Of a DNA stretch of 48,482 nucleotides, positions 2,292 through 41,429 are shown in pieces. Location: the IMG/VR virus record IMGVR_UViG_3300034198_011196, positions 1 through 48,482 of that record, one strand, 5' to 3'. The notes under the pieces are model-generated. The model made no database searches. It had not been told where the DNA came from and saw nothing but the letters and a program-made list of their open reading frames with translations. The DNA is from a virus. The position numbers were made by a program, and so were the translations under genes. Position 1 is the stretch's first letter. Each line of letters starts with the position of its first letter.

Positions 2292-2593
2292 TGGCTGCAA
2301 AATATAGTAAAACTAGTGCATATTATAACACCGGCACATTCAGCAACTTTCTCGATATTTTAACGTACCGGCCTATCACTAGGTATTCAGACGATGTGTT
2401 ATATACGATCGATAAGTTTTATGAACTTAGGCCAGATTTATTAGCATACGATTTATACGGCGATGCAGCATTGTGGTGGGTATTCCGAGAAAGAAATCCC
2501 AATACAATCGATGATCCTGTCTTTGATTTTCGTGCAGGTTTGAATATCTATCTTCCTAAGAAACAGAATCTCGCATCAGATTTAGGTATCTAA
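2291..2593 (+). CDS. 53: Baseplate wedge protein gp53-like
   Basis: A 100-aa protein matching the short form of T4 gp53 found in aquatic T4-like phages. The diagnostic block is R-P-D-L-L-A-Y-D-L-Y-G-D-A-A-L-W-W-V-F at about residues 48-66, followed by R-N-P-N and a closing L-N-I-Y-L-P, a LysM-like fold. In T4 gp53 binds the gp6-gp7-gp10 wedge and completes it before wedges join the hub. It is about half the length of T4 gp53 (196 aa), as in related marine phages. It starts in a one-base overlap with the preceding gene and is followed after four bases by the next. Confidence 0.8.
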   Translation: MAAKYSKTSAYYNTGTFSNFLDILTYRPITRYSDDVLYTIDKFYELRPDLLAYDLYGDAALWWVFRERNPNTIDDPVFDFRAGLNIYLPKKQNLASDLGI

Positions 2594-8500: not shown

Positions 8501-8837
8501 ACTTGCGCAAGATTATAAAAATAAGACTGGTAGCAAAGTCACAATAACCAGTGCCTATCGCAGCCAAACTGAACAAACAGCTATATATGACAAATGGCAA
8601 GCTGCAGGTGGTAAAAAACCAGAAAACCCTTCTGCTGCAGGAATCACTACGCCTGCTTTACCCGTTGTTTACGGCGGAAAATTAAACGCTCACGGCCAAG
8701 GCATTGCTATTGATAGTAGCCAGGCTCAGATATTGAATTCTACTTTCACTATCAGTGATTACGGGTTGAGTTGGGGCGGAAACTATTCGCCAGCAGATCC
8801 AGTGCATATCTACTTGTCAACATATCAACCTAAATAA
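5571..8837 (+). CDS. 5: gp5-type baseplate hub/tail spike with three predicted cell-wall hydrolase domains
   Basis: A 1088-aa protein. Residues 30-145 form the gp5/VgrG OB-fold: Y-I-G-V-V-K-D-N, S-G-R-L-Q-V-W-I-P-D, D-I-G-N-Q-V-L-C and G-D-P-G-R-G-Y-W. Residues 277-424 are a repetitive beta-helix of N-V-N-x-x-A and I-N-I-G-type strands, like the gp5 needle. Three enzymatic regions follow: a lysozyme/transglycosylase-like domain (about 530-680) with E561-T-G-G and G-Y-T-G-L-I-Q-F; a second such domain (about 770-930) with E782 and V-I-G-K-Y-Q; and an M15 (VanY-type) peptidase (about 970-1088) with S-A-Y-R-S, H1041-x2-G-x-A-x-D1048 and H1079 as zinc ligands. T4 gp5 is 575 aa with one lysozyme inserted before the needle, so this order and number differ. 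AAAGGAT precedes the ATG. Confidence 0.8.
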   Translation: MAEDRRQGRKTPAHTDREKVAGTKLDAATYIGVVKDNYDPTRSGRLQVWIPDFGGTQDEKSGNNPAFWRTVSYASPYFGATYQPSKYEKNSFDTVNHTYGMWMIPPDIGNQVLCTFVNGDPGRGYWFACINPTLSHGMVPGIATNPKADTTTVDDYLKPSLDPNGPKPQVLPVVEFNENAPDAISDNFYNNPRPIHEWQANVLLRQGLDIDGIRGAISSSSQRETPSHVFGISTPGRAYGNDPADDPEYQQKVNQGLIDDNTYAVRARKGGHQFVMDDGDSTGKDQLIRLRTSSGHQILMNDYEKIVYIANSEGSVWIELAGSGHMHIFTASGFNLHTQGDMNLHSGKNVNIHAENNVNLFATNEFNVNASKINATASDSILAFGGKVNIGSGSFMNIGASTINMGAGGAIQINGSKIDLNKTSGGNTITGASIQQNTHNATGFISDPNVTPRNVWREQIAAAQSIVSVLPQHEPWTRQGAGIQVTGDAPLTVVNSSICPPKKGAPPSYTLPPPNNAADRGKVKGQPYPWSTDKPFLDKVKSISETLNLNYIDMLACMNLETGGTFDPAITNSLGYTGLIQFGADACRACGTTTNAIKDLTRQDQCDFVLKYFQVNQLNQKAPTPRLVDIYLTILWPAAVGKPDDYVVFQPNSAAQRANSGFDTDKKGYTTVADVAAKIKQNQDSVKQLLANAGEQSQTLPENKEVSDGTGNVLSSTGSTTISNVDTGITQASAKSLQGDTCPAEYLNKSDNYSPPGGIGDTSPQFSQLQVKAMMSELGYLESKWDYAKVANDTVIGKYQIDAFYLTDTARAYIKPDAYKQYSDSAVIYNESWTGKDKINSEETFFEYKSTQDQIQFDEFTTNYAALIANGGIKNTDDICTAAGMLFVAHYYRDVDKAKKWRDQGGDDTAANYFNHGRYSIDILAANGAVTPTVGSGLASENTSGINPDDVLVFTSGSGDRSHFDQLDGSFKSAMLRLAQDYKNKTGSKVTITSAYRSQTEQTAIYDKWQAAGGKKPENPSAAGITTPALPVVYGGKLNAHGQGIAIDSSQAQILNSTFTISDYGLSWGGNYSPADPVHIYLSTYQPK

Positions 8838-8854
8838 ACTTGGTAAATATTAAT

Positions 8855-9244
8855 ATGTCAACATACAATGGTTTTTCTACATTTAATAGAGTCAAAAAGT
8901 TTAAAGTCACCGATTTTGAATTAGCTAAACAAGATCTCATAAACCACTTCAATACAAGAAAAGGTGAAAGAGTAATGCATCCTGATTTTGGAACAATGAT
9001 ATGGGATAGTTTATTTGAACCATTTACTGAAGCTCTCAGACAAAGTATTATAGACGATGTTAATAGTATTGTTAGATATGATCCTCGTTTAGGTGTGACT
9101 CAATTTGATATTACAGAACAACTTTACGGTATACAAATCATATTGACTTTAGTATATCTAACAACAAATCAAACTGAAACATTGATGATGCAATTCGATA
9201 AGAATTCTCCAGGAACTACTAAAGTATTTTCATCAAGCCAATAA
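8855..9244 (+). CDS. 25: Baseplate wedge protein gp25-like
   Basis: A protein of 129 aa from the ATG at 8855; the frame is open back to a TTG at 8840, but the ATG is the better start. It shows the gp25/anti-adapter lysozyme-like fold pattern: D-F-E-L-A-K-Q-D-L-I-N-H-F, then R-K-G-E-R-V-M-H-P-D-F-G-T-M-I-W-D, then I-x-x-D-V-N-S-I-V and D-P-R-L. In T4-like phages and type VI secretion (TssE) this protein clamps the gp6 wedge ring and initiates the sheath. Length equals T4 gp25 (132 aa). It sits between gp5 and gp6, the usual order in marine T4-like phages. A CTAAATA string at 8830-8836, inside the end of the previous gene, resembles the late motif of cyanophages, but whether it works is unclear. 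Confidence 0.85.
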   Translation: MSTYNGFSTFNRVKKFKVTDFELAKQDLINHFNTRKGERVMHPDFGTMIWDSLFEPFTEALRQSIIDDVNSIVRYDPRLGVTQFDITEQLYGIQIILTLVYLTTNQTETLMMQFDKNSPGTTKVFSSSQ

Positions 9245-9293: not shown

Positions 9294-12200
9294 ATGGCTA
9301 TCACTAGACGTCAGACCAATCTATTAGTAAACCAGGACTGGAAGCAAGTATACCAGTCCTTTAAAGAAGCTGATTTTCAGAGCTACGACTTTGAAACTAT
9401 TCGCAAGTCGATGATCGAATATTTGCGAACATATTATCCAGAAGATTTTAACGATTACACTGAGAGCAGTGAATATATTGCTTTGATTGATTTAATTGCG
9501 TTTTTAGGTCAAAGTCTTGCTTTTCGCACGGATCTAAATGCTCGTGAAAACTTTTTTGATACAGCTGAACGTCGTGACAGTGTACTGAAATTAGCACGCT
9601 TAATTAGTTATAACGCTAAGCGCAATGTGCCAGCAAACGGATTACTTAAAATAGACAGCATTACGACCACTGAACGAGTTATAGATTCTAACGGCTTTGA
9701 TCTCAGTAACCTGATTATCAGCTGGAACGATACAACTAATCCAGATTGGCAAGAACAATTTGTAACTATATTCAATGCAAGTTTAGTAAACAGTCAGATG
9801 ATTGGAAAACCCGGAAATAGTCAATCTATTAACAGTATTCAAACTGATGAATATACAATAAATCTTGTGCAGGGTGTATTGCCAACTTACGGATTTCGGG
9901 CCACGGTTGACGGCAGTGTCATGAATTTTGAAGCAGTCAGTGCTACCACCGTGAATCAGAGCTACATCTATGAACCTGAGCCTAAGCCCTCAGGTAAATT
10001 CAATGTATTATATCGTAATGACAATCAAGGCAACAATAGCGCAAACACTGGCTATTTTGTCTACTTCAAACAAGGCACACTAAGCACTACTACATTCAAT
10101 TTAGCTCAAGCATTAGCTAATCGTGTCGTGAATGTAAATTTTGATAACATTAACAATAGTGATATATGTTTATATCAGCTAGATAGCACAAACACACCAA
10201 CAACACTTTGGACTAAAGTACCAGCATTAGCTGGCATAAATGTCATTTATAATCACAGTACAGATCGAAATTTATATCAAGTAAACACTCGTGCTAATGA
10301 TCAAATTGATCTAGTGTTTGGCGACGGATCATTTGCAAATGTACCGCAAGGTGTATATCGATTATATTACAGAGTTAGCAACGGCCAACGCTATAAAATA
10401 ACGCCTGACGAAATGCAGGGAATAATAGTATCTATTAACTATGTCAGTCGAAATAATAGGGTTGAAACTCTTACTATTCGCGCCAGCTTACAATATACAG
10501 TAGCAAATTCTGATATACGTGAAGTATCTGATGATATTAGAGTCAAAGCACCGCAGCAGTACTATACACAGAATCGTATGATCACTGGTGAAGATTATAA
10601 TATCTTTCCTTATGTAAATTTCAATAGTATTCTTAAAGTAAAAGCAGTGAATCGTTCTAGTGCTGGTGTAAGCAGATTCTTGGATGTGTTAGACGCAACT
10701 GGAAAATACTCTAGTACTAACATATTTGGCAGTGATGGTTTCATATACCAAAATCAACCAATCAAAAGTGTAAATTTTAGTTTCACTTCACCTAACGACA
10801 TTAATAATGTTGTTTACAACATAATTGATCCACTGTTGTCTACAACAGAAATGAAGCAGTTTTATTATGCAAACTTTCCCAGAAAGAATCAGCCTTCTGA
10901 TTTTAACAACGTTTTATGGTCACAAATATCTATAGATACCAACTCTAGCAGTGGATATCTACGGTCTGGTAACGCACAGACTGGTGCAATCATGAATATT
11001 GGTAAAATCACTGCTAGTGCACTAAAATATATTACGGTAGGTTCATTGCTTCGATTTGTAGCAAGTACGGACAATACCAAATATTTCGATACACAGAATC
11101 AAATTCAAATTGGTACCCCCGTATACGAAGGTGAAAAATTATATATCTATGCTGCGGTGACTTCTACCTTGTCCAATAACGGTGTGAATCTCAGCGTTAA
11201 AGTGCCTACAGGTGCTGTGCTAGATCAAATAATACCAGTTTTTAATAATACATTACCTGGTAAATCAATGACAGATGAAATGACTCGCTTGATCCAAAGC
11301 TACAAAAACTTCGGTATCAGATATGATGTCAACTATCAAACTTGGAAAGTCATTTATCCACAAGATTTAAACCCAACCAGCATATTCGATCTTACTAACA
11401 CCGGCAATACATCAGGCAATGCGTTAGATGCTAGCTGGTTAGTAAGATTTAGTTTTAACGGTACTAGTTATTCTGCACTGTATAGAACGCAAGAATATAT
11501 ATTTGGTAGCGTTGATCAAACAAGATTCTATTTTGATCCAAAAGTTAATGCATATGATCCAAGACTCGGTATAATAGTGCATGATCAAATAAAAATTTTG
11601 AAAATCAATAATAAACCTGATAGTGCATCTCCATTGACCCAAGATCAAACTTGGTATATCTATAATACATTAATAGACAGCACTGGATTTCTTGATAATT
11701 CCAAGTTGTTAATAACTTTCACTGATTCTAATTTTGATGGTGTTCCGGACGATCCTGATTTATTTGATAATATAGTTGCACCAACTGTAAATCTTAGTAA
11801 GAAATATGTATTCTTTCAGCATCAATTGACCACTGATAACTATGATATTCTTGTGCCAATAGATAATACAACAGTAGTAACTACATATACCACACAGTCA
11901 TCTATATCAGCTAATAAGAGCCTTTATGCAGCTGGCCAAATATTTTATGCAACCTCTGAACAGCTATTTTATAAGTTGAATTCTACTGGTCAATTGAACA
12001 ACGATACTAGTTATGTTGCTGAGATTGGAAGACAAAGCGTATATTTTCAGCATCGTCATAATAGTCCAAGTGAACGAAGAATTGATCCTAGCCCAAATAA
12101 TATTATGGACTTTTATATTCTTACTAAGCAATATTCCCAAGATTACATTGCTTGGATCAGAGATACTAGTGGCACAGTTATTGAACCAACTAGACCTACT

Positions 12201-12692
12201 AATGAAGAACTTAAAATGGCTTATGGCGCAGGTTCTACTAGTCTAGATAATTATAAAGCATTGAGTGACACTCTAGTCTACAACTCAGGAAAATTTAAAC
12301 CAGTGTTTGGATTAGATACTAATAAAGTAAGAATTGAATATCAAGCTGTATTTAAAGTAGTAAAGAATCCTAATGTTATCGTTAGTGATAACGATATCAA
12401 GACCAGCTTGATTACAGCTATTAATACTTTTTTTGATACTAACAATTGGGATTTTGGTGAGACATTCTATTTTAGTGAACTCAGTACCTATCTTCATAAT
12501 ATGTTATCTCCTAATATAGCTAGCGTTATAATTGTCCCTTCTTCCAACAATCAGGCTTTTGGAAGTTTGATGCAAATTAATGCACAACCAGACGAAGTGA
12601 TCATTAGCGCAGCAACAGTAGATAATGTGGAGATTATCAGTGCAATAACAGCTACACAGCTGAATCAAAGCCTAGCAAACGTTATACCATGA
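9294..12692 (+). CDS. 6: Baseplate wedge protein gp6-like, enlarged
   Basis: A 1132-aa protein. The N-terminal 120 residues carry the gp6/baseplate J-type signature: Y-P-E-D-F-N-D-Y-T-E-S-S-E, then L-I-D-L-I-A-F-L-G-Q-S-L, then F-R-T-D-L-N-A-R-E-N-F-F-D-T-A and R-R-D-S-V-L-K-L-A. A second conserved block is V-R-I-E-Y-Q-A-V-F-K-V-V near residue 1010. T4 gp6 is 660 aa and forms the inner baseplate ring as a homodimer; this one is about 70% longer. The extra mass lies in the middle, where beta-rich sequence without a recognised family is found. The next gene follows after 10 bases and is probably co-transcribed from the promoter at 9264. Confidence 0.8.
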   Translation: MAITRRQTNLLVNQDWKQVYQSFKEADFQSYDFETIRKSMIEYLRTYYPEDFNDYTESSEYIALIDLIAFLGQSLAFRTDLNARENFFDTAERRDSVLKLARLISYNAKRNVPANGLLKIDSITTTERVIDSNGFDLSNLIISWNDTTNPDWQEQFVTIFNASLVNSQMIGKPGNSQSINSIQTDEYTINLVQGVLPTYGFRATVDGSVMNFEAVSATTVNQSYIYEPEPKPSGKFNVLYRNDNQGNNSANTGYFVYFKQGTLSTTTFNLAQALANRVVNVNFDNINNSDICLYQLDSTNTPTTLWTKVPALAGINVIYNHSTDRNLYQVNTRANDQIDLVFGDGSFANVPQGVYRLYYRVSNGQRYKITPDEMQGIIVSINYVSRNNRVETLTIRASLQYTVANSDIREVSDDIRVKAPQQYYTQNRMITGEDYNIFPYVNFNSILKVKAVNRSSAGVSRFLDVLDATGKYSSTNIFGSDGFIYQNQPIKSVNFSFTSPNDINNVVYNIIDPLLSTTEMKQFYYANFPRKNQPSDFNNVLWSQISIDTNSSSGYLRSGNAQTGAIMNIGKITASALKYITVGSLLRFVASTDNTKYFDTQNQIQIGTPVYEGEKLYIYAAVTSTLSNNGVNLSVKVPTGAVLDQIIPVFNNTLPGKSMTDEMTRLIQSYKNFGIRYDVNYQTWKVIYPQDLNPTSIFDLTNTGNTSGNALDASWLVRFSFNGTSYSALYRTQEYIFGSVDQTRFYFDPKVNAYDPRLGIIVHDQIKILKINNKPDSASPLTQDQTWYIYNTLIDSTGFLDNSKLLITFTDSNFDGVPDDPDLFDNIVAPTVNLSKKYVFFQHQLTTDNYDILVPIDNTTVVTTYTTQSSISANKSLYAAGQIFYATSEQLFYKLNSTGQLNNDTSYVAEIGRQSVYFQHRHNSPSERRIDPSPNNIMDFYILTKQYSQDYIAWIRDTSGTVIEPTRPTNEELKMAYGAGSTSLDNYKALSDTLVYNSGKFKPVFGLDTNKVRIEYQAVFKVVKNPNVIVSDNDIKTSLITAINTFFDTNNWDFGETFYFSELSTYLHNMLSPNIASVIIVPSSNNQAFGSLMQINAQPDEVIISAATVDNVEIISAITATQLNQSLANVIP

Positions 12693-12702
12693 TGGAAATA
12701 AG

Positions 12703-15700
12703 ATGGCCATAAAGACAGTAAATTTTCTACCAGAGATATTTCGTTCAGATACTAACAAGAAGTTTTTGAACGCCACATTAGACCAGCTAGTTAGTCAACC
12801 TGATCTGAGAAAAATCAATGGATATATTGGGCGCAAGTTTGCGCCTACTTATAAGAGTACAGATAATTATCAGCCAGAACCTACTGTAGAACGGCAGAAT
12901 TATCAGCTAGAGTCTAGTATTGTAGTTAGAGATAAAACTAAGAAAACTCAATTTTTTAGTAGCTATATTGACCTACTCAATCAAATCGAACATAACGGTG
13001 GCAATGTTTCTGATCAAAGTAGATTATTCAGTAATGAGACTTATAGTTTTGACGGAAGATTTGACTTTGATAAATTTATAAATTTTAGTCAATATTACTG
13101 GCTTACTGATGGCCCAGACCCAGTAGACGTTTACGGAAGTTCTATAGAAAAGGAACAAACCTTTGTTGTTACTCGTGATCCTTCGACTGGTAGCTATCAT
13201 TTCAGCAGCTTAGGTTCGACGCAGAATCCTGCTTTACACTTAGGCTATGGTGGCACATACAAATTCATAGTTGATCAACCTGGATTTCCGTTCTGGATAC
13301 AAAGTGATCCAGGAACCTTAGGCTATAAAACAAATCAAAAAAATATATCTACACGAGACGTATTAGGTGTAGCTAATAATGGCATAGATCGCGGTACAAT
13401 AACTTTCTCAGTGCCTCAGCCGACACAACAAGATCGATATTTACAAATGCCAATGGTAGCTTCAGCAGATCTGAGTACTGATGCGCATTTTAATGATATA
13501 CAACATATTAAGTTAAGTGATTTGAAAAAATCGCCCTATTTTGGTTTCGATAAAGTGACTGCTAGTCTAGCAGGCAAGACTGTAGTATTCATCAATAATG
13601 ATACAGACGATGTTTTCTGGACAGCTAATGATTTATATGATAGTGAGTTATATGCTGAATCAATGACTCGACAGTTGACATCAGCAACAGTTGCTACTGA
13701 CACAACGATCTATGTTGAAAATTCAAACGACTTAACGGTAGGAATGTATCTTAGTGACGAACAGCTATTGCATACCAATATAAGAATTAAACAGATAAAT
13801 GGAAATCAACTTATTCTTACTAATCCAATTGGTATTGAACTTAGCTCAGGTACAGCTATTTTGTTTACTTCTTATAACTATTCTTCATACCCTACTGTAC
13901 TAGAAAGTCAGAGAAGAAGTTTATGGCGTATTAATCTAGTTGGTATTCCTGGCAATGAAATAGTGAAACTAGTTCCAGACGTCCAGGTAAGCGTAAATCA
14001 AAGAGTTTTTGTTCGCAATGGCAGTACTAGAAGCCAATTAATATATTATCTAGATGCAAATTCTGGTCTTTTGGAACGTGTGCCCCATATTACTGCACCT
14101 TTACCTGTATTGTATTATCAGGACGGTTTAAAATCTGGATTCCAAGGAGAAATATTATTATCTGAGATATTTAATAATTCGATTGATATCAGCAAGATAC
14201 TGAATAGCAAGACTTATAAGAGTCCTAACGGTGTAGAATTTACCAATGGTATGAAAGTCAAATTTGGCAGCGGTGTTATTCCTGCATCATACATAGACAA
14301 CACATATTATGTTGAAGGCGTTGGTACTTCTATTAGATTAATAAATGTAAATTACTTTGTCAGTCCAGAAGGATTTGGTAAACAGAAAGATTATATAACT
14401 ATTAATCGTGGTAGTCAGGATTTAAATTCATGGACTAGAAGTAATCGCTGGTTTCACATTGATATAATCAAAAAAACTGCTGAGTATAATAATACCATTG
14501 CATTGATTGATCAAACCCTGCGAGCTAACAGACCTATTATCGAATTTGAACCTGATATTCAGTTGCAACAATATGGCCGAAAAGCCAAAGAACCAATCAA
14601 TATTTTATTATTGACTAGTACATTTACCGATGCATTCAATGGCATTGAGCTTAAAGAAACAGTAACTTTACCGCACAACGTAAAGTTAAAAGATGGTCAA
14701 AGAATAATATTTGGTAATGACATAGACTATACAGTTAGAAATAAAATCTATGTAGTTAAGTATTCATACATTAACGAAAAATACTTGATTACATTACAGC
14801 CATCAACCGATACTGAAGTATTTGCATATAACAATCTAATTGCATCTGATGGAGTCATCACTGATAGTGCAGTTATTACAGGTGTAGAGTACTATTTTGA
14901 CGGAACAAGCTGGCTACCCTGTCAATCTAAAACTTCATTAAATCAAGCGCCATTATTCGATGTAATTGATCAGAATGGATATAGTCTAGGCGATACAGAT
15001 GTATATCCTGATAGTACATTTGTCGGCACTAATATATTTTCTTACACAACGGGCACCGGCCCCGATGATCCAATATTAGGATTTCCGTTAAGTTATCGTA
15101 ATTTTAACCAAATTGGTGATATACAGTTTACCAATAATTTTGATAACGACACTTTTACGTATTTGAACACTGATATAGACAATAATGTTACCACGAATAT
15201 CAATTCTGTAGGTTTGTTGCGTGTCAACAATGGTCTTAATGATTATGCTGTGCGTAATATGTGGATAAAAGAAATAGAGCCTAGTCAACAGTTTCAAATT
15301 ATCAGTGGAGTTTTTGACGGACTAAATCGATATTTTATCATAGATATATTGCCAAATGAAACAGACAATACGGTGCCACATTTAAGAGTATACAAAAATA
15401 GTAATTTGGTGATACCTTCTTTATATGCTCAAATCAAAGTTGGTGCAAATACTTATATTCGTATAGATGATACATCTCTCGTAGCAGGCGATAAGATTGA
15501 CATCAGAATATACAGTGATACTGTTAGTAAAATAGGTTATTATGAAGTACCTAAAAATCTAGATCTGAATACTGAAAATAAGAATTTTACTACTTTAAGC
15601 TTGGGTCAAATGCGTAATCATTTGTCTCGTCTTGCTGAAAATACAACTCGTATTGTGGGCACATTGCCGGGTGATAGTAATCTAAGAGATGTTCCTATTA

Positions 15701-18700
15701 AACGACAGGGTGGTAGCATAGTTCAACACGCTAGTCCAATTCTGTATAGCGAATTGTTTTTGGTAGATACAGATGCAAATCTGATAAAAGGTATTGATTT
15801 AGCTAGGCACGAATTTCAGAAGATCAAAAACAAATACATAGAATCAGTATCAAAACTATCTGATTCAGTAGCTCTTACAGATATACCGGGCATATGCGAC
15901 TTGATTCTGAAAAATATGAATCAAGTAAAGAATAAATCTTTTCCATGGTACTATAGTGATATGATTCCTTACGGAGATATCAAAAATACTATCACTTATA
16001 CAGTATTGGATGCTGAAATTAGAGACTATGAAATCAGCAGAATATTTGATGATACTAAACTAAGCAATAACGCTGTATTAGTTTATATTAATAATAGACA
16101 GCTAACCAAAGGCACTGACTATGTTTTTGATACCACAAGGGCTGGCGTAACAATCAATACTTCCTACATATTAAATGTTGAAGATACAATCACAATCAAT
16201 GAATACGATAATACAGATGGAAACTATATTCCAGAAACACCAACTAAATTAGGTTTGTATCCTAAGTTTACACCAATGATATATTTGGATGATACATATC
16301 AAGATCCAGTATACGTTATCCAAGGTCATGATGGCAGTATTACTCCTGCATTTGGTGATATGCGAGATGATCTTCTTTTAGAATTTGAAAAAAGAATCTA
16401 TAATAACATTAAGATTAATTACAGTAAAAATGTATTTGATATATTTGATCACATACCAGGTAAATTTCGTTCAAGCAAATATAGCCATACAGAATTTACG
16501 CAGATATTAACTCGCAGCTTCTTGAAATGGGCAGGTGCTAACCGAGTTGATTTTACTACGAATGACTATTTCCAAGTCAGTAATCCATTTACTTGGAATT
16601 ACAGGATATACAATGACAGTATAGATGGAGAACGGCTTACTGGAACATGGAGAGCTATTTTTGATTATTTCTATGATACATATAGACCTCATACTAATCC
16701 ATGGGAAATGTTAGGATTTTCTGAAGAACCAGACTGGTGGCAAGACCGTTACGGCGCACCTCCGTATACCGGCGGCAACACAGTAATGTGGCATGATTTA
16801 GAAAAAGGATATATTTATGCAGGTCCTCGAGCCGGTTTCGATACTAGGTTTGCTAGGTCAGGACTAAGCAAAATTATTCCTGTAGATGATCATGGCGAAC
16901 TTAGACCACCAAATCAATTTGCAGTAGCTGGAATCGATAGTAGTAATACCAGTGCGAGTTATGTAGTTGGCAACCAAGGACCAGTTGAATTCGCGTGGCG
17001 TCGTAGTAGTGACTTTCCTTATGCTTTACAACAAGCGTTAGCAGTTGCATTCCCTGCATTTTATTTTGGAACTCTGATCAATGTAGGCGAATACTTCAGA
17101 AATGTTGAGCTTGATCAATATACATTAACAAGTAATCTGCAACGTATAACACCAGCGACAGTAACACTGAACGGCGACACCACTGGTGGAAGTATTAAAC
17201 GAGTAGCTGGTTATATAAACTGGGTGTCAGATTATTTACGTAATAACGGCATAGATCCTATTACTAAAATAAACACTTATCTTCAATATGTGTCAGTGCA
17301 ACTAGCTTATAAAATGGCTGGCTATACAGATCCAACGATGATAGAAGTGATCGCTGAACAAAGTAGTCCTACTAGCACTAATCAAGGCGTTGTGATTCCA
17401 AAAGAGAATTACACAATCGAACTCAATAAATCTACACCTATCAACACTATAACATACAGTGCTGTTATTGTAGAAAGAAGCGAAAATGGATATACAGTAA
17501 GCGGATATGATGTGGATAATCCATATTTCACAATCATACCTAGTTTAGCTAATAACAACGCCTATGCTATCTCAGTGCTTAATGATCGTGCAGTTATCTA
17601 TAAAGATTATCAGAAATATAAAGTTACTATTCCTTATGGATTTGAGTTTACCAATAAACAACAGTTAGTAGATTTTTTAATAAGTTATGGAAGGTATCTT
17701 ACTGGCTTAGGCATACAATTTGTTGATTATGATACTGATTTGACTGAGCAAAGAGATTTTGTGCTCAGTAGTAAAGAATTTCTAAATTGGAGTCAGCAAA
17801 GTTGGCCACTGGGTAGCGTACTTGTACTCAGTCCAATTCTGAATACTATTAAAATCAATACTACTTCTGGCGTTATAGATAACATTAAAAATGCGCCTGG
17901 GTCTAGTAGAATTTTAGATACTAACTTTACTTTTATCAAGTCTAATCAGTTCACAGTGCTTAGAGATGAAGGAAATTTTAAACTTACTGCTAACTTTGTA
18001 CAGACTATTGCGTTGGCAGTTCTAGATGTGGTTGAATTTGAACATGTAATGGTATTTGACAATACCACAGTATTCAATGACATCATTTATAAACCAGAAT
18101 TAGGTAATAGACAATACAGAATGAAGCTGGTCGGTAGCAAGACTGGCAATTGGACAGGTTCTCTGAATCCTGGAGGTTTTATTTATAATAGCCCAATAGT
18201 ACCAGACTGGAATAGTGGAGTTGATTATAAGAAAGGTGAACTAGTAAGCTATAAAAGTTTTTATTATGCTGCTTTGTATGACATCGTGGCAACAGTAGAG
18301 TTTGCGCCTTCTCAATGGAGACAGATACCTACTAATCAAATAAAAACTGGATTGTTACCTAACTTCACATTTAATGCTGGAAAGTTTAATCAGTTCTTTG
18401 ACCTAGACGATCCTTCTACAGAAGGAGGTTTCGATGAGTTTTCAGATAGAGTTATAGGATTCCAAGAACGTCAGTATATGACTGATCTTGGTATTAATAA
18501 ATCTATACAAGCTAAGTTCTATCAAGGTTTTATTAAAGAAAAAGGCACAATCAATTCTGTAAATGCATTCACTGCTGCTGGATTTAACAGTGTAAGTAGC
18601 ACAGTTAATTTATATGAAGAATGGGCATTACGCATTGGCGAATATGGTGCATTAAACAACAATAAGTTTGTTGAAGTTCAGCTGATTGAAGGTGAATACA

Positions 18701-21700
18701 CTGGCGATCCGATCGTTCTTACTTTACTTCCTAATAATGGATCGTCTGTTGATCAAATCATTGGTATCACTCCAGATAAAACATATCGTACAGGCACAGA
18801 TTATAAAGCTAATATCTTCCTGAATCGGGATGCTCATAGTATCTACGAAAATGATATTCATACTGCTGGATATGTCAGTATGAATGACATAAACACCACT
18901 ATATACGACATTGCAAATTATTCTTCTCTCAGCAACAAAGTTGCTCAAATGGGTATAGGATATAAAATCTGGTGTGCTAAAGATTTTAACAATGATTGGA
19001 ATGTATATCGCCTAACGGAGACCGAAGGCAGTATCATATCACTATCATATAACATTGATAATATTTCAACTGTAACTACTGATCGCAGAGTGTCACTTGC
19101 ATATGGAGATTTAATTGTTATAAAAGCGTTTGATACACGAGTTGACGGCATATACCAAGTTTATAGCGTCGATAGTCCTACTAAATTTAATATTGCTACA
19201 GTGGCTATTGCACCTACAATTAAGCAATTACAGACTATCACAGGTACTGGTTCTTTATTTAAGTTTATAAGTTCTCGGTTGAAGACAGCTACTGATTTAA
19301 ATTCAATAACACCGCTCAGGGGCTGGATGAACGGTGATAAGTTGTGGGTAGACAATGATATAAATTCAGGTAAATGGTCTGTTTATAACAAAAGTGATCC
19401 ATGGCAAGGAAATGTCAGCAATTTTAATGCTAACATGAAGATGTCAGCCAATGATTACGTTACCGACGGTGGCTTTGGTACAGTAACAACTATCAGTCAA
19501 GACGGCAAATTTGCTGCAGCTGGTATGCCGTCAGCTGACTCAGGTCGAGTGATGGCGTTTGTGTCGAACGTCGTAAACGGCAGTACATTTACATTGGTAG
19601 CTAACATATCTTCGTCAAATACTGGACTTAGTAATTTTGGTGCTAGTTTAGATAGTGCTGCAAATGTACTTTACGTCGGTGTGCCGGGCGACGGTTCTAC
19701 TCAAGCAGGTAATGTATTTGTTTACAGTTTTGATGGCAACGCTACGTTTACTAAACTTCAGCAGATAAGCAGCCATTGGACTTCTATGCTAGGAGTATCT
19801 AATATCGGCGATACATTTGGGCAGAGTATAAGCGCAAGTACTGATGGTCGTTGGTTGTTCATAGGTGCTCCAAACAAAGGTAATGTTGAAGTATTCCATG
19901 CAAACACTGCTGGAGTGACACAATACATTTATGCAAATACTATATCAAACAGCAGTGCTGCTAAATTTGGATACACAGTTAAGACTACAAGTGATGCTAG
20001 CCAAACAATAATCAGTGCTCCATATGAGACTGTAGATGGTGTAAGTTCAGCCGGCGCAGTATATGTCTATGACAGAAGTATTGAAACTTTTATAGCTAAT
20101 ACAAGTGCAAGTTATGCTACTCAAAATTCTTTTGACCCGTATACCATTAGAATAACGATTGATGGTAATCTACAAACTATAACTACTCACTATACTATAT
20201 CTGGTAATGTTATAACTTTCAAAAATACACCGATCATTGGTAGTCGTATCGATATAGAAACTAGTAAATTACAATTTATGGAAAGAATCGTTTCTGATTC
20301 TCAGACCAGTGGTGCTACTTTTGGCATAACATCTCATATCAGTGGTAATGATGCTGATATCTATATTGCTAGCCCTGGATACAGTGAAATAGGTTATTAC
20401 AGTGGTATTGTTTATAGATTTGTTAATGAAGGTGCAGCTTATGGTGTGATAAGCAGCAACAAGTTCTCTCCAGCTGTTACGGTGGGCGATTCTATTAGAC
20501 TCAATGGCCAATTAGTCACATTTACTCAAACAGACGTTGCAAATGTAGCAGTCAACATTAATAGTGTTGGAATATCTGGCGTTACAGCTAGCGTGTCAGA
20601 TATAGGTGTATTGTCTATCACCAGTAATGTATTGACACCTTACCAGAGATTGGTCGTTAGCCCTGGTCCGGGTACTGCACTTAGGGATCTAGGATTAAAT
20701 GTCTATCAAGCAGCACAAACATTGAAACATCCAGCCAATGACCAAGTTAATAATTTTGGTGCACACGTAGTGTCTAGCAGTGATTCACGTAAGTTAGTAA
20801 TTGGTGCTACTGGTGGCACAACATATAACTCTCTTACTTTAGATACTAATACTACAACATTTGATCAAGACAGCACAAATTTCTTAGACAGTATATATGG
20901 TTCTGGTTCTGTATACGTCTATGGGCTAGTTGGTGGAGATTTAGCTGGTGTAGCACAAGATCAATATGTGCTAGTTCAACGTTTAGAAAACAATAGTCTA
21001 GTTAATAATGACTTGTTTGGTAGCAGTCTTGCTATGAATGACAATACATTGTTAGTTGGTGCTCAAAATGACAGTGGAAATAAAATAATACCTGATCAAG
21101 TTAGTGGTCTTCTCACTGCTGTCCCACGCACTGGTACATACTATATCTATAAGGATATATCAGGTAATGTAGGGTGGGACATCATTCGTTCAGAAATGCC
21201 AAAAGTTGATACTAGAAGTATCACTAGTTTTTATATCTACGATAAAAATACAGATGTAGTCCTGTCGAGATTGGATCATATCGATCCAGCTAAAGGCAGA
21301 ATATTAGGCGTTGCAGATCAAGATATTGATTATCGTACACCATACGATCCAGCAATTTATAACGCAGCTGGAGCTGCTGACGAAACTGCAATGGAACTGT
21401 CAGTGAATGTTAATAGTCATTGGGGTATGAATCAGGTTGGAAAAGTATGGTGGAATTTGTCAACCATGAGATATCTTGATTATGAACAGGGTAGTCTGGT
21501 TTACCGTGAAGCAAATTGGGGAGAACTGTTTCCTGGCAGCTCAGTTGAAGTTTATGAATGGATAATGAGTGATGTTCTGCCAAACAGTTACACTGGTTCA
21601 GGCACACCTAAGTATCCAAACAATACTGCTTATGTAGTAGAGAGTTATGTAGATGCAGTTAGTAAAACAACACGCAGTCGATATTATTTCTGGGTGCGCG

Positions 21701-24700
21701 GTAAAACTACCATTGATCAAGACAGTAACAAAAATATCAGTGTAGCTGCGATCGAAAACATGATTATGAATCCTTCCCGGCAAGGTATTCCTTATGTCCA
21801 GGTTCTTCGTTCTGATACTATTAGTCTGCACGGCATAACAAACAAAATCACTGCTAATAATACAATCTTGCATATTAATTACGACACGCTTAAGAATACG
21901 GATGTGATTCATAGTGAGTATGCATTGATACAAGAAGGCAATGCTACTAGTTTAATACCCCCTCGATTTATCAATAAACTCAGGGATAGTTTATCTGGTG
22001 TTGATAGTCACGGTCAGAACGTGCCTGATCCTACACTAAGTCCACAAAATAAAATAGGTATCTATGACAGACCGCGACAGTCTTTCTTTGTCAATAGATT
22101 TGCTGCATTGAAAAACTGGATAGAGTATCTCAATGACGTATTGATCAATGTACCTGTGATTGAAGAATTTCGAATAGATTCATTATACAATGGCGAACCT
22201 CTGCCGTCAGACGAGACTTATGATATTACAACTGATACCAAAATTGAATTAGATTACATTGATCTATCAAAGATTTCATCTGGATATACTGTTTTAGTAT
22301 TGAGTGACGAATCTCAACGAGGTATATGGGCTCTGTATGTATATTCAGGTAATATCAATAGTCCTTGGACATTATCAAAAACTCAGAGTTATAATGTACC
22401 ATTTTATTGGACTAAAGCAGACTGGTATGATAGCACATATGATCCTACAGTCAAGACAGATTATGTTGTTGAAACATCAAATGATCTTCTGAAATTTTCA
22501 AACTTGCCTGAGACTACTACGATTAAAGTAATGAATAATGGCCATGGTCAATTTGAAGTTTATCGTTATAATGCATCAGGCACTCGTGATCTAGTGGGCA
22601 TCCAAAATGGAACAATTCAGTTTAAATCGTCTTTATATGATTCAACTGTAAATGCTACAACTGAAATTAGAATTATATTTGATGTAATATTGAACGATAT
22701 ATTCATCAAGAGTCTACAAAAAAATCTGAATCAGATGTTTTTCTTTATGATTAATTACGTGTTAACTGAACAAAAAGACGTAGACTGGATTTTCAAAACT
22801 AGCTTTGTTAGCGTTATACAGCAACTCAGAAAATTAGAGCAGTTTCCAAATTATATTCGTGATAATCAGACCTATTACGAAAGCTATATCAATGAAGTCA
22901 AACCATACAGAACTAGTATACGTGAATATATTGTTGATTATCAAGGAAAAGATGATTACCAAGCTGACATGACAGATTTTGACTTACCTAGTATCTATAA
23001 TCAAATTACTAGCAATTATCACAGTCCAGATGGATCAGTAAGCACAGATGCATATCAACTAGAGAATTCAAAAGTGTACAGTCAGTGGCGAGATAACCAC
23101 ACTTATAGTATTAAAGAAGTTTTGGTAGCTAACGTCGGTAGCAGCATACAATCACCGATTATTTCATTGTTTCTTAGTAGCCCTGTTGTGCTTGAAGTTG
23201 GAAACACAGTTACACAAAGCAGCAACAGTGCTTCAGGTACGGTTATTAGCAGTAGTGACACTGGTATTTTAAATTTATCAGGTGTAAGTGGCACATTCGA
23301 TACTACAAATTATATCTATGATAATGGTGCTAATACCTATGCTACAGTAAGTTCGTTAACAACTTTGTCAGATAATGGTTATTTCTTAGAACCAAGCGTC
23401 ACTGTGAAAGGCGGTGGTGGTAGTGGTGCAGAGATCAGAGCAGTGATAAATGCTGGCACTAATACTATTCAAAAATTCGAAGTAATAAAACCAGGAGAAG
23501 GATATACTAGTACACCACAGATATTCATTAACGGCACCGGCACAGGTGCTGCAGGATATCCAATGCTCACAGGTCAATACTACTTAGAAACTATACCGAC
23601 AATAAACTTGTCATTAGAACGAGCAGTTACTGTTTATACTGGAAATCTAATATATCAACCTAATACTAATGCATCTGGTACAGTCTATACAAGTTCAAAT
23701 GGAAATGTGATAACATTAGTAAATGTGGTAGGTGCGTTTCAAAGTAATTCATACATATTCTCAGAGTTTGCAAACTTATACGTCAAGCCAGCAGTTGCTA
23801 CTCAGATAATATGGATATCCGGCAATGCAACTGTTTACGCAGGTAATACGTTAACTCAAGGTACCTGGGCATCCGCAACAGTATTTTCAAACGCTTCGGG
23901 TGCGTATGAACCTGAGGTAACAAGATGGATAACTAAAGTGCCGATTTGGAATGTTCGTGGCACGTTCTATAGTAATGCCTCCATAGCCAAGGATAATTAT
24001 AGTTTAGGTTTGTATAACATAAGAACCATATCAACTAATCGTACATCTCCTATGATTTCATTTAATCAAACGGTGAATAAGAGTTATAATAAAGTTCGTA
24101 CATTTGATACAAAGCTGAAGTTTGATCGTGTCAGTTATGGTACACAAGTGATAGATTGGACTCCAAATGTTACGATTACTGCTAATACTATTGTAAGTTA
24201 TCGAGGAAAAGCATATCGGGCATTAACTGATGTGTATAGCTCAGCTGTATTAAAACTCAGCGGAAATATTTATGTATCAGGAAATCTTCCTTTACAAGCT
24301 GGTGTAGCTATTTGGCAGTCTGGTCAAACAGGTAATGCTACTGTATTAACAACAGTTACTGGCGGCAATATTGTTACTGTCGCTAATATCAGTGGTACAT
24401 TCGTTAAGAGACTTGGAAATATTAAATATGCCAATAATGTAGATAGCAGAGTAAGGCCAGTTCGTGTAACAAATATATTTGATTATACGAAATATGTATT
24501 AGTCTCAGCTGATGAATTTGATAATGCTAACGATAGAATATGGGCTTCTTATCAGCCAGACAACACAATGTTATCTAAAGACTTGAAAAAGTTAGTCTAC
24601 GGTATCGAATATCCTGGTGTAAAAGTGCAAGGTATTAAATTTGATGAATTAACTTCTTCTGCAAATACTTCTGTAGTGCACACTGGTACTATAACTAATA

Positions 24701-26541
24701 CTCTTAATATGGTAGTAGATGACCTAACAAAACTAACTAGTGATGATATCGCTGTGTTTAATTTTACTGAACATGGATATAGCAGAGGTCAATATCTGAC
24801 AGTTATAAACAATGATGTTAACATTGTAAAACTGTCTGGTGCTGTGATCGTCAAAGAAGGCGATTATATCAAGCAAGGAACAGCTAATGTCAAAGTGTTG
24901 ACTCAATCGTCTAGTAATGTAGTGACAGTATCTGCTCCTGGGCTAACAACGTCTGGTGGTGTTATTACTATATACAATCGTATACCTACTGTTGGTAATA
25001 TAAGACTAAATTCTAATATAACTACACTTAGTGGTAATGTGTTAACGCAGCTTTCTTCTGGTGCAACTGCTATAGTTTCTGCTGATACTACAGATAGCAA
25101 CGTAATACCAGTGGTCAGTATAACCGGCACTTTCTTAGCAAATAGTTATTTGTATGATCAGGCAGCCAACACTGGTGTCAAGGTGTCATCATTGACGTTC
25201 AGCTTCTCTGCACTGCCAACATCTGTTGAACCAACTAGTATCGCCTTAAACACAAATCAAGTGTTAATTGAAGAAGTTACTGAAGGAAATCTGTATATAA
25301 CTGGTCAGCTTGACTATATTGCACCAAGTGCTAATATCACACTTAATTATTATGATCAAAATAATCCGTTATTTACTGACACGAATATTCAAAGCGATTA
25401 CGGGCATCGCACTGTTGAAATTACATTGCCGTCAAATATTACTGCTTCATATGGTAGCATAATAGGACAAGTTGGCGGTAACGCTACAGCAATATTGAGA
25501 TCAACGGTTGTAAACACAAACTTCATAACGCTGTCAAATGTAGCAGGAATATTTGATACTGTGAAAAATTTGTCATTGGATGGCAATGACCTCGCGATAG
25601 CACCTGTTAATATATCTACCATAATAGATACACAAAGTACACTTGGCACTAGAGCTGAAGACATTATAGTGTCAGGTGGTGCTTATTACGATACTTTCAG
25701 TAGTCATGCTCCAGAAGAACTAGTGCCAGGTGTGACATACGACACAATGGTTATGAGAGTTTACAGTAATATCTATACAAACACTACTACATTAGCACAT
25801 TCAGTCGTGCAGGGCATGAATGCAAATGTTATGTCATCTGACAGTAAACAATGGCCTAGTTATTATAAGATAGACGCTAATACTTTTGCTAAAACTACAT
25901 TCTTGACTGCTAATTTGCATATAACTGACACTGATATATTTGTAGCAGATGCAGCAGTATTGGCATCTCCAAATCCAAGTTTAGTTTCGCCGGGCACTAT
26001 ATATCTCAATGGTGAAATCATAACTTATTATGAACGAGATATAGTTCAAAATAGATTGGGGCAGATTCGTCGTTCAGTAAATGGCACAGGAGCGCCGCTA
26101 GTACACTTGGCTGCACCGTATGTCACGCACGCGAATAAGTTGTTCTATTCAAATGCTGCGATAGTGCAAGATATGACATCTCGTCCGATTCCAGGTACTC
26201 CTCATAAAGATACTTGGTATACTGCACCAGCTACACAGACTTTGACTATCTCTGTTGCTAATACTGTTACAGCGGGCGACACTATTACTCAAGCTATAAC
26301 TGGGGCGACAGGTATAGTAGCAGTGAACAGTACTGGTACAACCATTACATTAGTGAATAGCAGTGGAGTTTTTGCTAATTGTAAATATCCAGACAATGAT
26401 GTTACCAAACGTTTTTATCTATATAAAAATGCGTCGAATCTACGAGTATATCCAACTTCACCTATTAACTTCTTAGCAGGCAATGGTTTCCAGGGTAGTA
26501 AGTCTACCGAGGTAACATACCTAAAGAACAACGTCACATGA
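12703..26541 (+). CDS. Giant virion structural protein (4612 aa), baseplate/tail-fibre associated
   Basis: One uninterrupted frame of 13.8 kb. The first 150 residues (F-L-P-E-I-F-R-S-D-T-N-K-K-F-L, G-Y-I-G-R-K-F-A-P, I-N-F-S-Q-Y-Y-W-L) match the conserved start of large structural proteins encoded after gp6 in marine T4-like phages. Residues about 2247-2830 contain seven F-G-x-S/T repeats with V-Y-V-Y-type strands, an FG-GAP/integrin-like propeller. Residues about 3494-4562 hold eight copies of a 45-50 aa beta module (G-x-x-x-x-Q ... G-T-V ... V-x-G-x-F). A K-G-G-G-G-S-G-A segment lies near 3570. Two W-x(n)-Y-x-x-G/A-x-x-V-x-Y segments (near 1836 and 3819) recall small carbohydrate-binding modules. 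A role linking baseplate wedge to fibres or binding surface glycans is inference. Confidence 0.75.
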   Translation: MAIKTVNFLPEIFRSDTNKKFLNATLDQLVSQPDLRKINGYIGRKFAPTYKSTDNYQPEPTVERQNYQLESSIVVRDKTKKTQFFSSYIDLLNQIEHNGGNVSDQSRLFSNETYSFDGRFDFDKFINFSQYYWLTDGPDPVDVYGSSIEKEQTFVVTRDPSTGSYHFSSLGSTQNPALHLGYGGTYKFIVDQPGFPFWIQSDPGTLGYKTNQKNISTRDVLGVANNGIDRGTITFSVPQPTQQDRYLQMPMVASADLSTDAHFNDIQHIKLSDLKKSPYFGFDKVTASLAGKTVVFINNDTDDVFWTANDLYDSELYAESMTRQLTSATVATDTTIYVENSNDLTVGMYLSDEQLLHTNIRIKQINGNQLILTNPIGIELSSGTAILFTSYNYSSYPTVLESQRRSLWRINLVGIPGNEIVKLVPDVQVSVNQRVFVRNGSTRSQLIYYLDANSGLLERVPHITAPLPVLYYQDGLKSGFQGEILLSEIFNNSIDISKILNSKTYKSPNGVEFTNGMKVKFGSGVIPASYIDNTYYVEGVGTSIRLINVNYFVSPEGFGKQKDYITINRGSQDLNSWTRSNRWFHIDIIKKTAEYNNTIALIDQTLRANRPIIEFEPDIQLQQYGRKAKEPINILLLTSTFTDAFNGIELKETVTLPHNVKLKDGQRIIFGNDIDYTVRNKIYVVKYSYINEKYLITLQPSTDTEVFAYNNLIASDGVITDSAVITGVEYYFDGTSWLPCQSKTSLNQAPLFDVIDQNGYSLGDTDVYPDSTFVGTNIFSYTTGTGPDDPILGFPLSYRNFNQIGDIQFTNNFDNDTFTYLNTDIDNNVTTNINSVGLLRVNNGLNDYAVRNMWIKEIEPSQQFQIISGVFDGLNRYFIIDILPNETDNTVPHLRVYKNSNLVIPSLYAQIKVGANTYIRIDDTSLVAGDKIDIRIYSDTVSKIGYYEVPKNLDLNTENKNFTTLSLGQMRNHLSRLAENTTRIVGTLPGDSNLRDVPIKRQGGSIVQHASPILYSELFLVDTDANLIKGIDLARHEFQKIKNKYIESVSKLSDSVALTDIPGICDLILKNMNQVKNKSFPWYYSDMIPYGDIKNTITYTVLDAEIRDYEISRIFDDTKLSNNAVLVYINNRQLTKGTDYVFDTTRAGVTINTSYILNVEDTITINEYDNTDGNYIPETPTKLGLYPKFTPMIYLDDTYQDPVYVIQGHDGSITPAFGDMRDDLLLEFEKRIYNNIKINYSKNVFDIFDHIPGKFRSSKYSHTEFTQILTRSFLKWAGANRVDFTTNDYFQVSNPFTWNYRIYNDSIDGERLTGTWRAIFDYFYDTYRPHTNPWEMLGFSEEPDWWQDRYGAPPYTGGNTVMWHDLEKGYIYAGPRAGFDTRFARSGLSKIIPVDDHGELRPPNQFAVAGIDSSNTSASYVVGNQGPVEFAWRRSSDFPYALQQALAVAFPAFYFGTLINVGEYFRNVELDQYTLTSNLQRITPATVTLNGDTTGGSIKRVAGYINWVSDYLRNNGIDPITKINTYLQYVSVQLAYKMAGYTDPTMIEVIAEQSSPTSTNQGVVIPKENYTIELNKSTPINTITYSAVIVERSENGYTVSGYDVDNPYFTIIPSLANNNAYAISVLNDRAVIYKDYQKYKVTIPYGFEFTNKQQLVDFLISYGRYLTGLGIQFVDYDTDLTEQRDFVLSSKEFLNWSQQSWPLGSVLVLSPILNTIKINTTSGVIDNIKNAPGSSRILDTNFTFIKSNQFTVLRDEGNFKLTANFVQTIALAVLDVVEFEHVMVFDNTTVFNDIIYKPELGNRQYRMKLVGSKTGNWTGSLNPGGFIYNSPIVPDWNSGVDYKKGELVSYKSFYYAALYDIVATVEFAPSQWRQIPTNQIKTGLLPNFTFNAGKFNQFFDLDDPSTEGGFDEFSDRVIGFQERQYMTDLGINKSIQAKFYQGFIKEKGTINSVNAFTAAGFNSVSSTVNLYEEWALRIGEYGALNNNKFVEVQLIEGEYTGDPIVLTLLPNNGSSVDQIIGITPDKTYRTGTDYKANIFLNRDAHSIYENDIHTAGYVSMNDINTTIYDIANYSSLSNKVAQMGIGYKIWCAKDFNNDWNVYRLTETEGSIISLSYNIDNISTVTTDRRVSLAYGDLIVIKAFDTRVDGIYQVYSVDSPTKFNIATVAIAPTIKQLQTITGTGSLFKFISSRLKTATDLNSITPLRGWMNGDKLWVDNDINSGKWSVYNKSDPWQGNVSNFNANMKMSANDYVTDGGFGTVTTISQDGKFAAAGMPSADSGRVMAFVSNVVNGSTFTLVANISSSNTGLSNFGASLDSAANVLYVGVPGDGSTQAGNVFVYSFDGNATFTKLQQISSHWTSMLGVSNIGDTFGQSISASTDGRWLFIGAPNKGNVEVFHANTAGVTQYIYANTISNSSAAKFGYTVKTTSDASQTIISAPYETVDGVSSAGAVYVYDRSIETFIANTSASYATQNSFDPYTIRITIDGNLQTITTHYTISGNVITFKNTPIIGSRIDIETSKLQFMERIVSDSQTSGATFGITSHISGNDADIYIASPGYSEIGYYSGIVYRFVNEGAAYGVISSNKFSPAVTVGDSIRLNGQLVTFTQTDVANVAVNINSVGISGVTASVSDIGVLSITSNVLTPYQRLVVSPGPGTALRDLGLNVYQAAQTLKHPANDQVNNFGAHVVSSSDSRKLVIGATGGTTYNSLTLDTNTTTFDQDSTNFLDSIYGSGSVYVYGLVGGDLAGVAQDQYVLVQRLENNSLVNNDLFGSSLAMNDNTLLVGAQNDSGNKIIPDQVSGLLTAVPRTGTYYIYKDISGNVGWDIIRSEMPKVDTRSITSFYIYDKNTDVVLSRLDHIDPAKGRILGVADQDIDYRTPYDPAIYNAAGAADETAMELSVNVNSHWGMNQVGKVWWNLSTMRYLDYEQGSLVYREANWGELFPGSSVEVYEWIMSDVLPNSYTGSGTPKYPNNTAYVVESYVDAVSKTTRSRYYFWVRGKTTIDQDSNKNISVAAIENMIMNPSRQGIPYVQVLRSDTISLHGITNKITANNTILHINYDTLKNTDVIHSEYALIQEGNATSLIPPRFINKLRDSLSGVDSHGQNVPDPTLSPQNKIGIYDRPRQSFFVNRFAALKNWIEYLNDVLINVPVIEEFRIDSLYNGEPLPSDETYDITTDTKIELDYIDLSKISSGYTVLVLSDESQRGIWALYVYSGNINSPWTLSKTQSYNVPFYWTKADWYDSTYDPTVKTDYVVETSNDLLKFSNLPETTTIKVMNNGHGQFEVYRYNASGTRDLVGIQNGTIQFKSSLYDSTVNATTEIRIIFDVILNDIFIKSLQKNLNQMFFFMINYVLTEQKDVDWIFKTSFVSVIQQLRKLEQFPNYIRDNQTYYESYINEVKPYRTSIREYIVDYQGKDDYQADMTDFDLPSIYNQITSNYHSPDGSVSTDAYQLENSKVYSQWRDNHTYSIKEVLVANVGSSIQSPIISLFLSSPVVLEVGNTVTQSSNSASGTVISSSDTGILNLSGVSGTFDTTNYIYDNGANTYATVSSLTTLSDNGYFLEPSVTVKGGGGSGAEIRAVINAGTNTIQKFEVIKPGEGYTSTPQIFINGTGTGAAGYPMLTGQYYLETIPTINLSLERAVTVYTGNLIYQPNTNASGTVYTSSNGNVITLVNVVGAFQSNSYIFSEFANLYVKPAVATQIIWISGNATVYAGNTLTQGTWASATVFSNASGAYEPEVTRWITKVPIWNVRGTFYSNASIAKDNYSLGLYNIRTISTNRTSPMISFNQTVNKSYNKVRTFDTKLKFDRVSYGTQVIDWTPNVTITANTIVSYRGKAYRALTDVYSSAVLKLSGNIYVSGNLPLQAGVAIWQSGQTGNATVLTTVTGGNIVTVANISGTFVKRLGNIKYANNVDSRVRPVRVTNIFDYTKYVLVSADEFDNANDRIWASYQPDNTMLSKDLKKLVYGIEYPGVKVQGIKFDELTSSANTSVVHTGTITNTLNMVVDDLTKLTSDDIAVFNFTEHGYSRGQYLTVINNDVNIVKLSGAVIVKEGDYIKQGTANVKVLTQSSSNVVTVSAPGLTTSGGVITIYNRIPTVGNIRLNSNITTLSGNVLTQLSSGATAIVSADTTDSNVIPVVSITGTFLANSYLYDQAANTGVKVSSLTFSFSALPTSVEPTSIALNTNQVLIEEVTEGNLYITGQLDYIAPSANITLNYYDQNNPLFTDTNIQSDYGHRTVEITLPSNITASYGSIIGQVGGNATAILRSTVVNTNFITLSNVAGIFDTVKNLSLDGNDLAIAPVNISTIIDTQSTLGTRAEDIIVSGGAYYDTFSSHAPEELVPGVTYDTMVMRVYSNIYTNTTTLAHSVVQGMNANVMSSDSKQWPSYYKIDANTFAKTTFLTANLHITDTDIFVADAAVLASPNPSLVSPGTIYLNGEIITYYERDIVQNRLGQIRRSVNGTGAPLVHLAAPYVTHANKLFYSNAAIVQDMTSRPIPGTPHKDTWYTAPATQTLTISVANTVTAGDTITQAITGATGIVAVNSTGTTITLVNSSGVFANCKYPDNDVTKRFYLYKNASNLRVYPTSPINFLAGNGFQGSKSTEVTYLKNNVT

Positions 26542-41305: not shown

Positions 41306-41332
41306 AGCATACTCCTTACATTATTTACAGAT

Positions 41333-41361
41333 ATTATACTTCTCTGAGGACAACTTGTCAA
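41333..41361 (-). promoter_or_regulatory. Consensus sigma70 promoter for the VWA gene
   Basis: TTGACA (41356-41361), 17 bases, TATAAT (41333-41338): a perfect match to both boxes and to optimal spacing. The -35 lies in GGTTGACAAG, shared with the promoters at 42590 and 42906. The ATG follows 28 bases after the -10. Confidence 0.85.
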
Positions 41362-41375
41362 CCGCTTGATCCAAT

Positions 41376-41413
41376 AAAAAAGAGGACTTACAGCTTTCGC
41401 CTGCCTCTAGTCC
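41376..41413 (-). terminator. Probable intrinsic terminator after the MoxR gene
   Basis: On the minus strand GGACT and AGTCC arms (41413-41384) enclose an inner CAG/CTG pair around a GCGAAAG loop, followed by TC and six T residues (41381-41376). It lies between the MoxR stop at 41430 and the VWA promoter, so it would insulate the two units. Confidence 0.5.
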
Positions 41414-41429
41414 GTGACTAAGGGACTCG

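Follow-up and report, generated by a model that had tools for sequence, protein, structure and literature searches.

The 48,482-nt window analysed here, the whole of the virus record IMGVR_UViG_3300034198_011196, encodes a giant virion structural protein of 4612 aa (12703..26541, + strand), and the question raised by this locus is what a series of FG-type repeats is doing in the middle of such a protein. A preliminary description made from the sequence had placed a seven-bladed FG-GAP propeller of the integrin-alpha type at 19441-21170 and had suggested that, in a baseplate-proximal protein, it would form a receptor- or glycan-binding platform. Here, we examined the predicted fold of this region, its boundaries within the giant protein, and the fate of the corresponding site in relatives. 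Our preferred reading is that an FG-GAP propeller, set in a hairpin turn of the protein at the gp7 gene position, probably serves as a glycan- or receptor-binding head.

Gene neighbourhood of the giant protein

The giant gene follows a run of baseplate genes on the same strand. Upstream lie a wedge subunit that is gp53-like by position (2291..2593, +; PHROG 7145), a gp5-like hub protein with a C-terminal endolysin-like domain (5571..8837, +; PHROG 13211 and 2649, Pfam Phage_base_V), a gp25-like wedge subunit (8840..9244, +; PHROG 43), and a gp6-like wedge subunit (9294..12692, +; PHROG 10646 and 219). The C-terminus of the hub protein is closer to VanY/endolysin peptidases than to a lysozyme domain. 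With the order gp25-like, gp6-like, giant gene, set beside the order 6-7-8 in T4, the 4612-aa gene directly after the gp6-like gene occupies the position of the T4 gp7 gene. The protein itself matches the PHROG 10938 profile in four stretches (1182 bits, E 0), and its scaffold is conserved among jumbo phages of the RaK2/PA5oct/Atu_ph07 type. Homologues from PA5oct, Phosso, SCTP-2, Vibrio phage 2.275.O, Atu_ph07, RaK2, and GAP32 have a similar neighbourhood, in which the gene just before encodes a large protein, annotated in most of them as a wedge subunit, and the record of the PA5oct homologue notes its detection by ESI-MS/MS.

In marine T4-like phages, VrlC is found in place of gp7 (PMC7029224). 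No sequence relation to either protein was detected: T4 gp7 aligned to the three conserved regions of the giant protein with an hhalign probability of at most 1.4%, VrlC of HTVC008M aligned to the giant protein with less than 1%, and the HTVC008M gene after gp6 had no relation to the scaffold by profile comparison. Likewise, gp7 was absent from PDB profile searches with the conserved regions and from the matches listed by Foldseek for a low-confidence scaffold model of one relative (L041, pTM 0.51). The term baseplate-proximal therefore stands as far as the gp53-, gp5-, gp25-, and gp6-like genes directly upstream and the mass-spectrometry note for PA5oct are concerned, but does not extend to a detectable relation with gp7 or VrlC; from these gene neighbours, we infer that the giant protein is located in the baseplate.

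Further along the tail operon, the window encodes a 1519-aa protein (28676-33235) in which Pfam matches repeats of HYDIN/ASH-type Ig domains in 7 stretches (E 4e-20); its C-terminal domain is glycine-rich, and it is probably a fibre or adhesin. On the minus strand, at 40046-42530, a DUF2201 metallopeptidase/VWA-like protein and an AAA ATPase, taken as MoxR-like from this VWA neighbour, form a chaperone-like pair, and a weak radical SAM match slightly under the cut-off (E 2.6e-6) lies at 46127-46957.

FG-GAP units and predicted propeller fold

Seven FG dipeptides occur exactly where they had been placed before, namely at aa 2258 (FGTV), 2312 (FGAS), 2372 (FGQS), 2422 (FGYT), 2540 (FGIT), 2685 (FGAH), and 2772 (FGSS), and the units that they open span aa 2258-2832 of the 4612-aa open reading frame. 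By itself this count is only moderately unlikely, as 163 of 20,000 composition shuffles gave at least seven FG in a 590-aa stretch (mean 2.5). The decisive evidence comes from FG-GAP_2 matches across the family, a profile match to integrins, and a confident AlphaFold2 model. When the full 4612 aa were scanned, Pfam FG-GAP_2 (PF14312) remained below its cut-off of 23 bits (18.9 bits, E 0.0018), so that family searches miss the propeller domain, and on the excised 785-aa stretch it scored 28.5 bits, above the same cut-off. It was found in all 22 members of the family alignment (E ≤ 0.1) and in the cargos, as we call the sequence inserted at this site, of all 40 further members (E ≤ 0.01). Searched against PDB sequences, the family profile matched integrin alpha-4 (E 5e-8). 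Pfam FG-GAP (PF01839) had no match anywhere in the window, and calcium loops of the integrin type DxDxDG, sought as D-x-[DNS]-x-[DNS]-G, were found nowhere in the 4612-aa protein. A tblastn search with the propeller as query covered 50,697 phage records and returned nothing at 1e-5, and cultured relatives are thus of no direct help.

AlphaFold2, run on aa 2076-2860 with 22 sequences, predicted seven four-stranded blades with good confidence (pLDDT 84.3, pTM 0.83). The integrin-alpha-type propeller proposed earlier is therefore also the predicted one; a model without a closed propeller, which had been named as the outcome that would speak against it, did not arise from the structure prediction. 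Comparison of DSSP strands with the sequence assigns FGxSV to strand A of each blade, the GAP-like motif to strand B, and GxVxVY to strand C, which is followed by strand D. The blades had been described as mostly ending in G-x-V-x-V-Y/F, but this motif is the third strand and a fourth follows in every blade. Integrin alphaV led the Foldseek matches in the PDB (E 3.2e-10), with alpha4 and alpha6 among the integrin alpha chains that came next. Target-normalised TM-scores of 0.68 to 6-phosphogluconolactonase (6PGL, 6nau) and 0.71 to the WD40 domain of PRPF19 (4lg8), both seven-bladed, fit a predicted closed ring of seven blades. In a viral structure library, FG-GAP proteins were prominent among the matches, both from giant viruses and from phages.

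In the model, all on the + strand, blade 1 (FGTV) spans aa 2253-2311 (19459..19635), blade 2 (FGAS) aa 2312-2371 (19636..19815), and blade 3 (FGQS) aa 2372-2421 (19816..19965). The long insertions that had been noticed in blades 4, 5, and 6 are present and can be assigned to particular loops. Blade 4 (FGYT, aa 2422-2539, 19966..20319) carries a small beta module in its C-D loop (aa 2466-2514, 20098..20244) and blade 5 (FGIT, aa 2540-2684, 20320..20754) a predicted alpha/beta module in its C-D loop (aa 2576-2667, 20428..20703); relative L033 lacks both inserts. The long loop of blade 6 (FGAH, aa 2685-2771, 20755..21015) is the B-C loop, modelled with low confidence (20809..20904). Blade 7 (FGSS, aa 2772-2832, 21016..21198) completes the predicted ring. 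The insert of blade 5 follows the flagellin hook IN motif in its pattern, and the corresponding insert of relative L027 gave a marginal Flagellin_IN match (23.0 bits, Pfam cut-off 22.7).

Insertion in the turn of a scaffold hairpin

Pairwise alignment of the giant protein to its cultured homologues extends no further than about aa 2115 and restarts at about aa 2825-2846. Scaffold HMMs from both sides of this site, mapped onto the fetched loci, define an inserted unit of 594 aa (aa 2231-2824, 19393..21174, +), very close to the span of 19441-21170 given at the outset; blade 7 ends at about aa 2832. The exact borders come from 12 distinct contigs (L032/L067, L041/L079, L068-L075, L080, and L083) in which the site is empty and the flanks are only 4-6 aa apart, e.g. 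WAVYTY[NGAT]WDRTRQQ. In the AlphaFold2 model of one of them (L041, overall pTM only 0.51) the flanks form a hairpin with strands at 611-615 and 620-625 joined by a short turn. The counterparts in the window protein, also strands in its model, are KWSVYNK (aa 2224-2230, 19372..19392, +), which corresponds to WAVYTY of L041, and WDIIRSE (aa 2825-2831, 21175..21195, +), which corresponds to WDRTRQQ. Prediction and comparison place the propeller, with its 594 aa, as an insertion within the turn of a single scaffold beta-hairpin.

The strand order in the model suggests how the two parts may be joined. Blades 1-6 would come wholly from the cargo, as would strands A-C of the seventh blade, whose strand D would be the scaffold strand WDIIRSE; the propeller would in this way be clipped onto the scaffold. 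Just before the site, the L041 scaffold has a motif HxLxxGDxV, and this region possibly resembles the FCCH domain found in ubiquitin E1 enzymes (a weak Foldseek match); Pfam E1_FCCH matched in one relative with E 1.6e-4.

Among cultured members, RaK2 and GAP32 have about 115 aa between the flanks, Vibrio phage 2.275.O has 172, PA5oct 323, SCTP-2 420, and Atu_ph07 and Phosso have 1533-1534, and no FG-GAP propeller was seen at the site in the cultured PHROG 10938 members examined. The roughly 1530 aa at the site in Phosso (L006) and Atu_ph07 (L009) contain many GxGYxxxPxVxxxGG repeats, and the Phosso site sequence had no Pfam match. Since 12 contigs carry no cargo and RaK2 and GAP32 only about 115 aa, the propeller is not universally needed.

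States of the site and evolution of the cargo

Relatives of the giant protein provide a natural series at this one site. Besides the empty sites, five relatives (L033, L076, L081, L082, and L084) have a bare propeller of 392-403 aa, and most others a cargo of 460-1435 aa. Inside the cargo, the carbohydrate-binding module CBM5/12 was detected in 27 of the 40 further relatives scanned, with scores above the Pfam cut-off in L043, L046, L048, L051, and L057. It was not found in the cargo of the window protein, in which a CBM5/12-like stretch lies outside the propeller (aa 3819-3842, 24157..24228, +; Pfam E 4.4e-5, 23.9 bits, short of the cut-off of 26.2). In L040, a YHYH domain (PF14240, E 1.3e-30) is located exactly at the propeller site (L040:12701-14218). 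YHYH domains have been noted fused to tail or baseplate proteins and are predicted metal-dependent hydrolases (PMC7824862).

In a FastTree phylogeny of the scaffold (local support values), the empty sites form one clade (0.998) within a clade of bare and empty sites (1.0), which in turn is nested in a propeller-bearing group (0.999, 39 taxa). The YHYH-bearing L040 falls somewhere within this same group. As the empty sites are nested within propeller bearers, the empty state in that clade is best read as a loss of the propeller. Assembly errors were rejected as an explanation of the empty sites, which comprise eight distinct sequences on the 12 contigs in a single supported clade. Less certain is a gain of the propeller relative to cultured phages, which depends on the root.

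The cargo diverges faster than the scaffold. The propeller core without inserts was less identical than the scaffold in 99.6% of 231 pairs (alignment A2), and, with all cargos included, the cargo was less conserved in 99% of 4371 pairs. Both sets of identities are correlated with those of the scaffold (r 0.91 for the 231 pairs, r 0.86 for the 4371), which indicates that the propeller was inherited mostly vertically with its scaffold. A rapid exchange of cargo between close relatives was considered and rejected on this correlation, together with the observation that no pair with a scaffold identity above 80% had a cargo identity below 64%; exchange appears to be rare, with no recent swapping seen among the compared pairs. 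Relaxed constraint fits the faster divergence of the cargo as well as adaptation to receptors does.

Proposed role of the propeller

The fold, the number of blades, the insertion point, the loss and replacement in relatives, and the faster divergence were all computed, and to these we add a proposal on function. The faces of a propeller are wide and its loops variable; here the small modules in the loops of blades 4, 5, and 6 would enlarge its surface, and many relatives add CBMs within the cargo. We suggest that the propeller is a binding head, which would be held out from the tail tip at adsorption. Its exposure and the type of ligand are inferred. The platform for receptors or glycans proposed in the preliminary description is made likelier by the CBM5/12 domains of the relatives' cargos, the faster divergence, the loss, and the replacement by YHYH. 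In a more tentative extension, which we hold to be possible but rather less likely than not to be right, the hairpin tip would be a docking point for alternative host-contact heads, namely an FG-GAP propeller with CBMs gathered in its loops, YHYH, or none.

The main rival is a structural role, in which the propeller would be a spacer or a protein-docking module of the tail tip, holding e.g. a fibre or a wedge, without contact to the host. Protein docking is a common use of the propeller fold, and some phage tails employ it structurally, such as the T7-like nozzles; Foldseek gave matches, with low TM-scores, to the portal-tail complex of cyanophage A4 and to the HRP29 tail. The mostly vertical inheritance with the scaffold over the 4371 pairs is what would be expected of a structural part. 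However, such a module should not vanish cleanly or give way to YHYH, and the CBM5/12 domains in the cargo point to sugars; we regard this role as unlikely, though a serious competitor to the binding head.

An enzymatic cargo that hydrolyses glycans or peptides on the cell surface, like the endosialidase propellers, is improbable. No catalytic family was matched in the Pfam scans, the matches to sialidases reach TM-scores of only ~0.15-0.23, and no integrin-type FG-GAP propeller is known to be an enzyme. In favour of an enzymatic role are the weak fold matches to the phi92 and K1F-type endosialidases and the predicted hydrolase function of the alternative cargo YHYH (PMC7824862). Similarly improbable is an inert passenger kept by drift, with which the loss in one lineage and the faster evolution would agree, as an idle insert of 400-1400 aa is expected to decay, yet all 62 bearers scanned (alignments A2 and A8) have kept a recognisable FG-GAP_2 match across their wide divergence.

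Comparison with known systems

The binding head proposed here shares features with several described proteins. Integrin alpha propellers, the best PDB match by both fold and profile, likewise consist of seven blades of four strands each, with FG, GAP-like, and GxVxVY motifs in the strands, whereas the window protein lacks their calcium loops, has large modules in the blade loops, and presents the propeller as an insertion in a phage protein outside any integrin context. PhiKZ gp131C (4GBF) is a seven-bladed propeller at the baseplate periphery of a jumbo phage and has been speculated to bind a receptor (PMC4901313), but there the propeller is a C-terminal domain and not an internal insertion; a PDB search with the family profile, carried to E 10, did not recover gp131C, nor was it among the best 50 Foldseek matches listed. 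In phage phi11, Gp45 also places a propeller in a receptor-binding platform (PMC4901313), although it is five-bladed and the homotrimeric receptor-binding protein of a siphophage. The wedge protein Gp119 of Vp4 (Herelleviridae), a Bacillus cereus phage, carries a CBM fold and binds cells (PMC11406892); like many relatives of the window protein it bears sugar-binding modules, but these are CBM folds without a propeller.

The cultured PHROG 10938 proteins (RaK2, GAP32, PA5oct, Atu_ph07, and others) have the same scaffold at the same gene position, but differ at the site itself, where they have about 115 aa (RaK2/GAP32) or other sequence of 172-1534 aa. A similar predicted fold is found in S-TIM5 (H6WG31) and in the Atu_ph07 'hemagglutinin' (A0A2L0UZX4), which unlike the window propeller are separate FG-GAP proteins of ~400 aa and not insertions. 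Each element taken alone is already known: phages have FG-GAP proteins, baseplates have propellers, and wedges have CBMs. Among open-licence literature, no paper joining FG-GAP, phage, and baseplate was found, nor any earlier description of a delimited site with empty, bare, decorated, and replaced states, which is weak evidence that this combination is new.

Implications for jumbo phages

For most of the large structural proteins that jumbo phages encode, no function is assigned; one of the largest is resolved here into a conserved scaffold and a precisely delimited cargo. The natural states of its site, i.e., empty, with a bare or decorated propeller, or with YHYH, mark the borders for domain constructs and provide natural comparisons, and they make a role of non-fibre tail-tip proteins in host recognition directly testable. 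If the hairpin tip is indeed a docking point for alternative heads, changes at this one site would contribute to the specificity of adsorption without involving the tail fibres.
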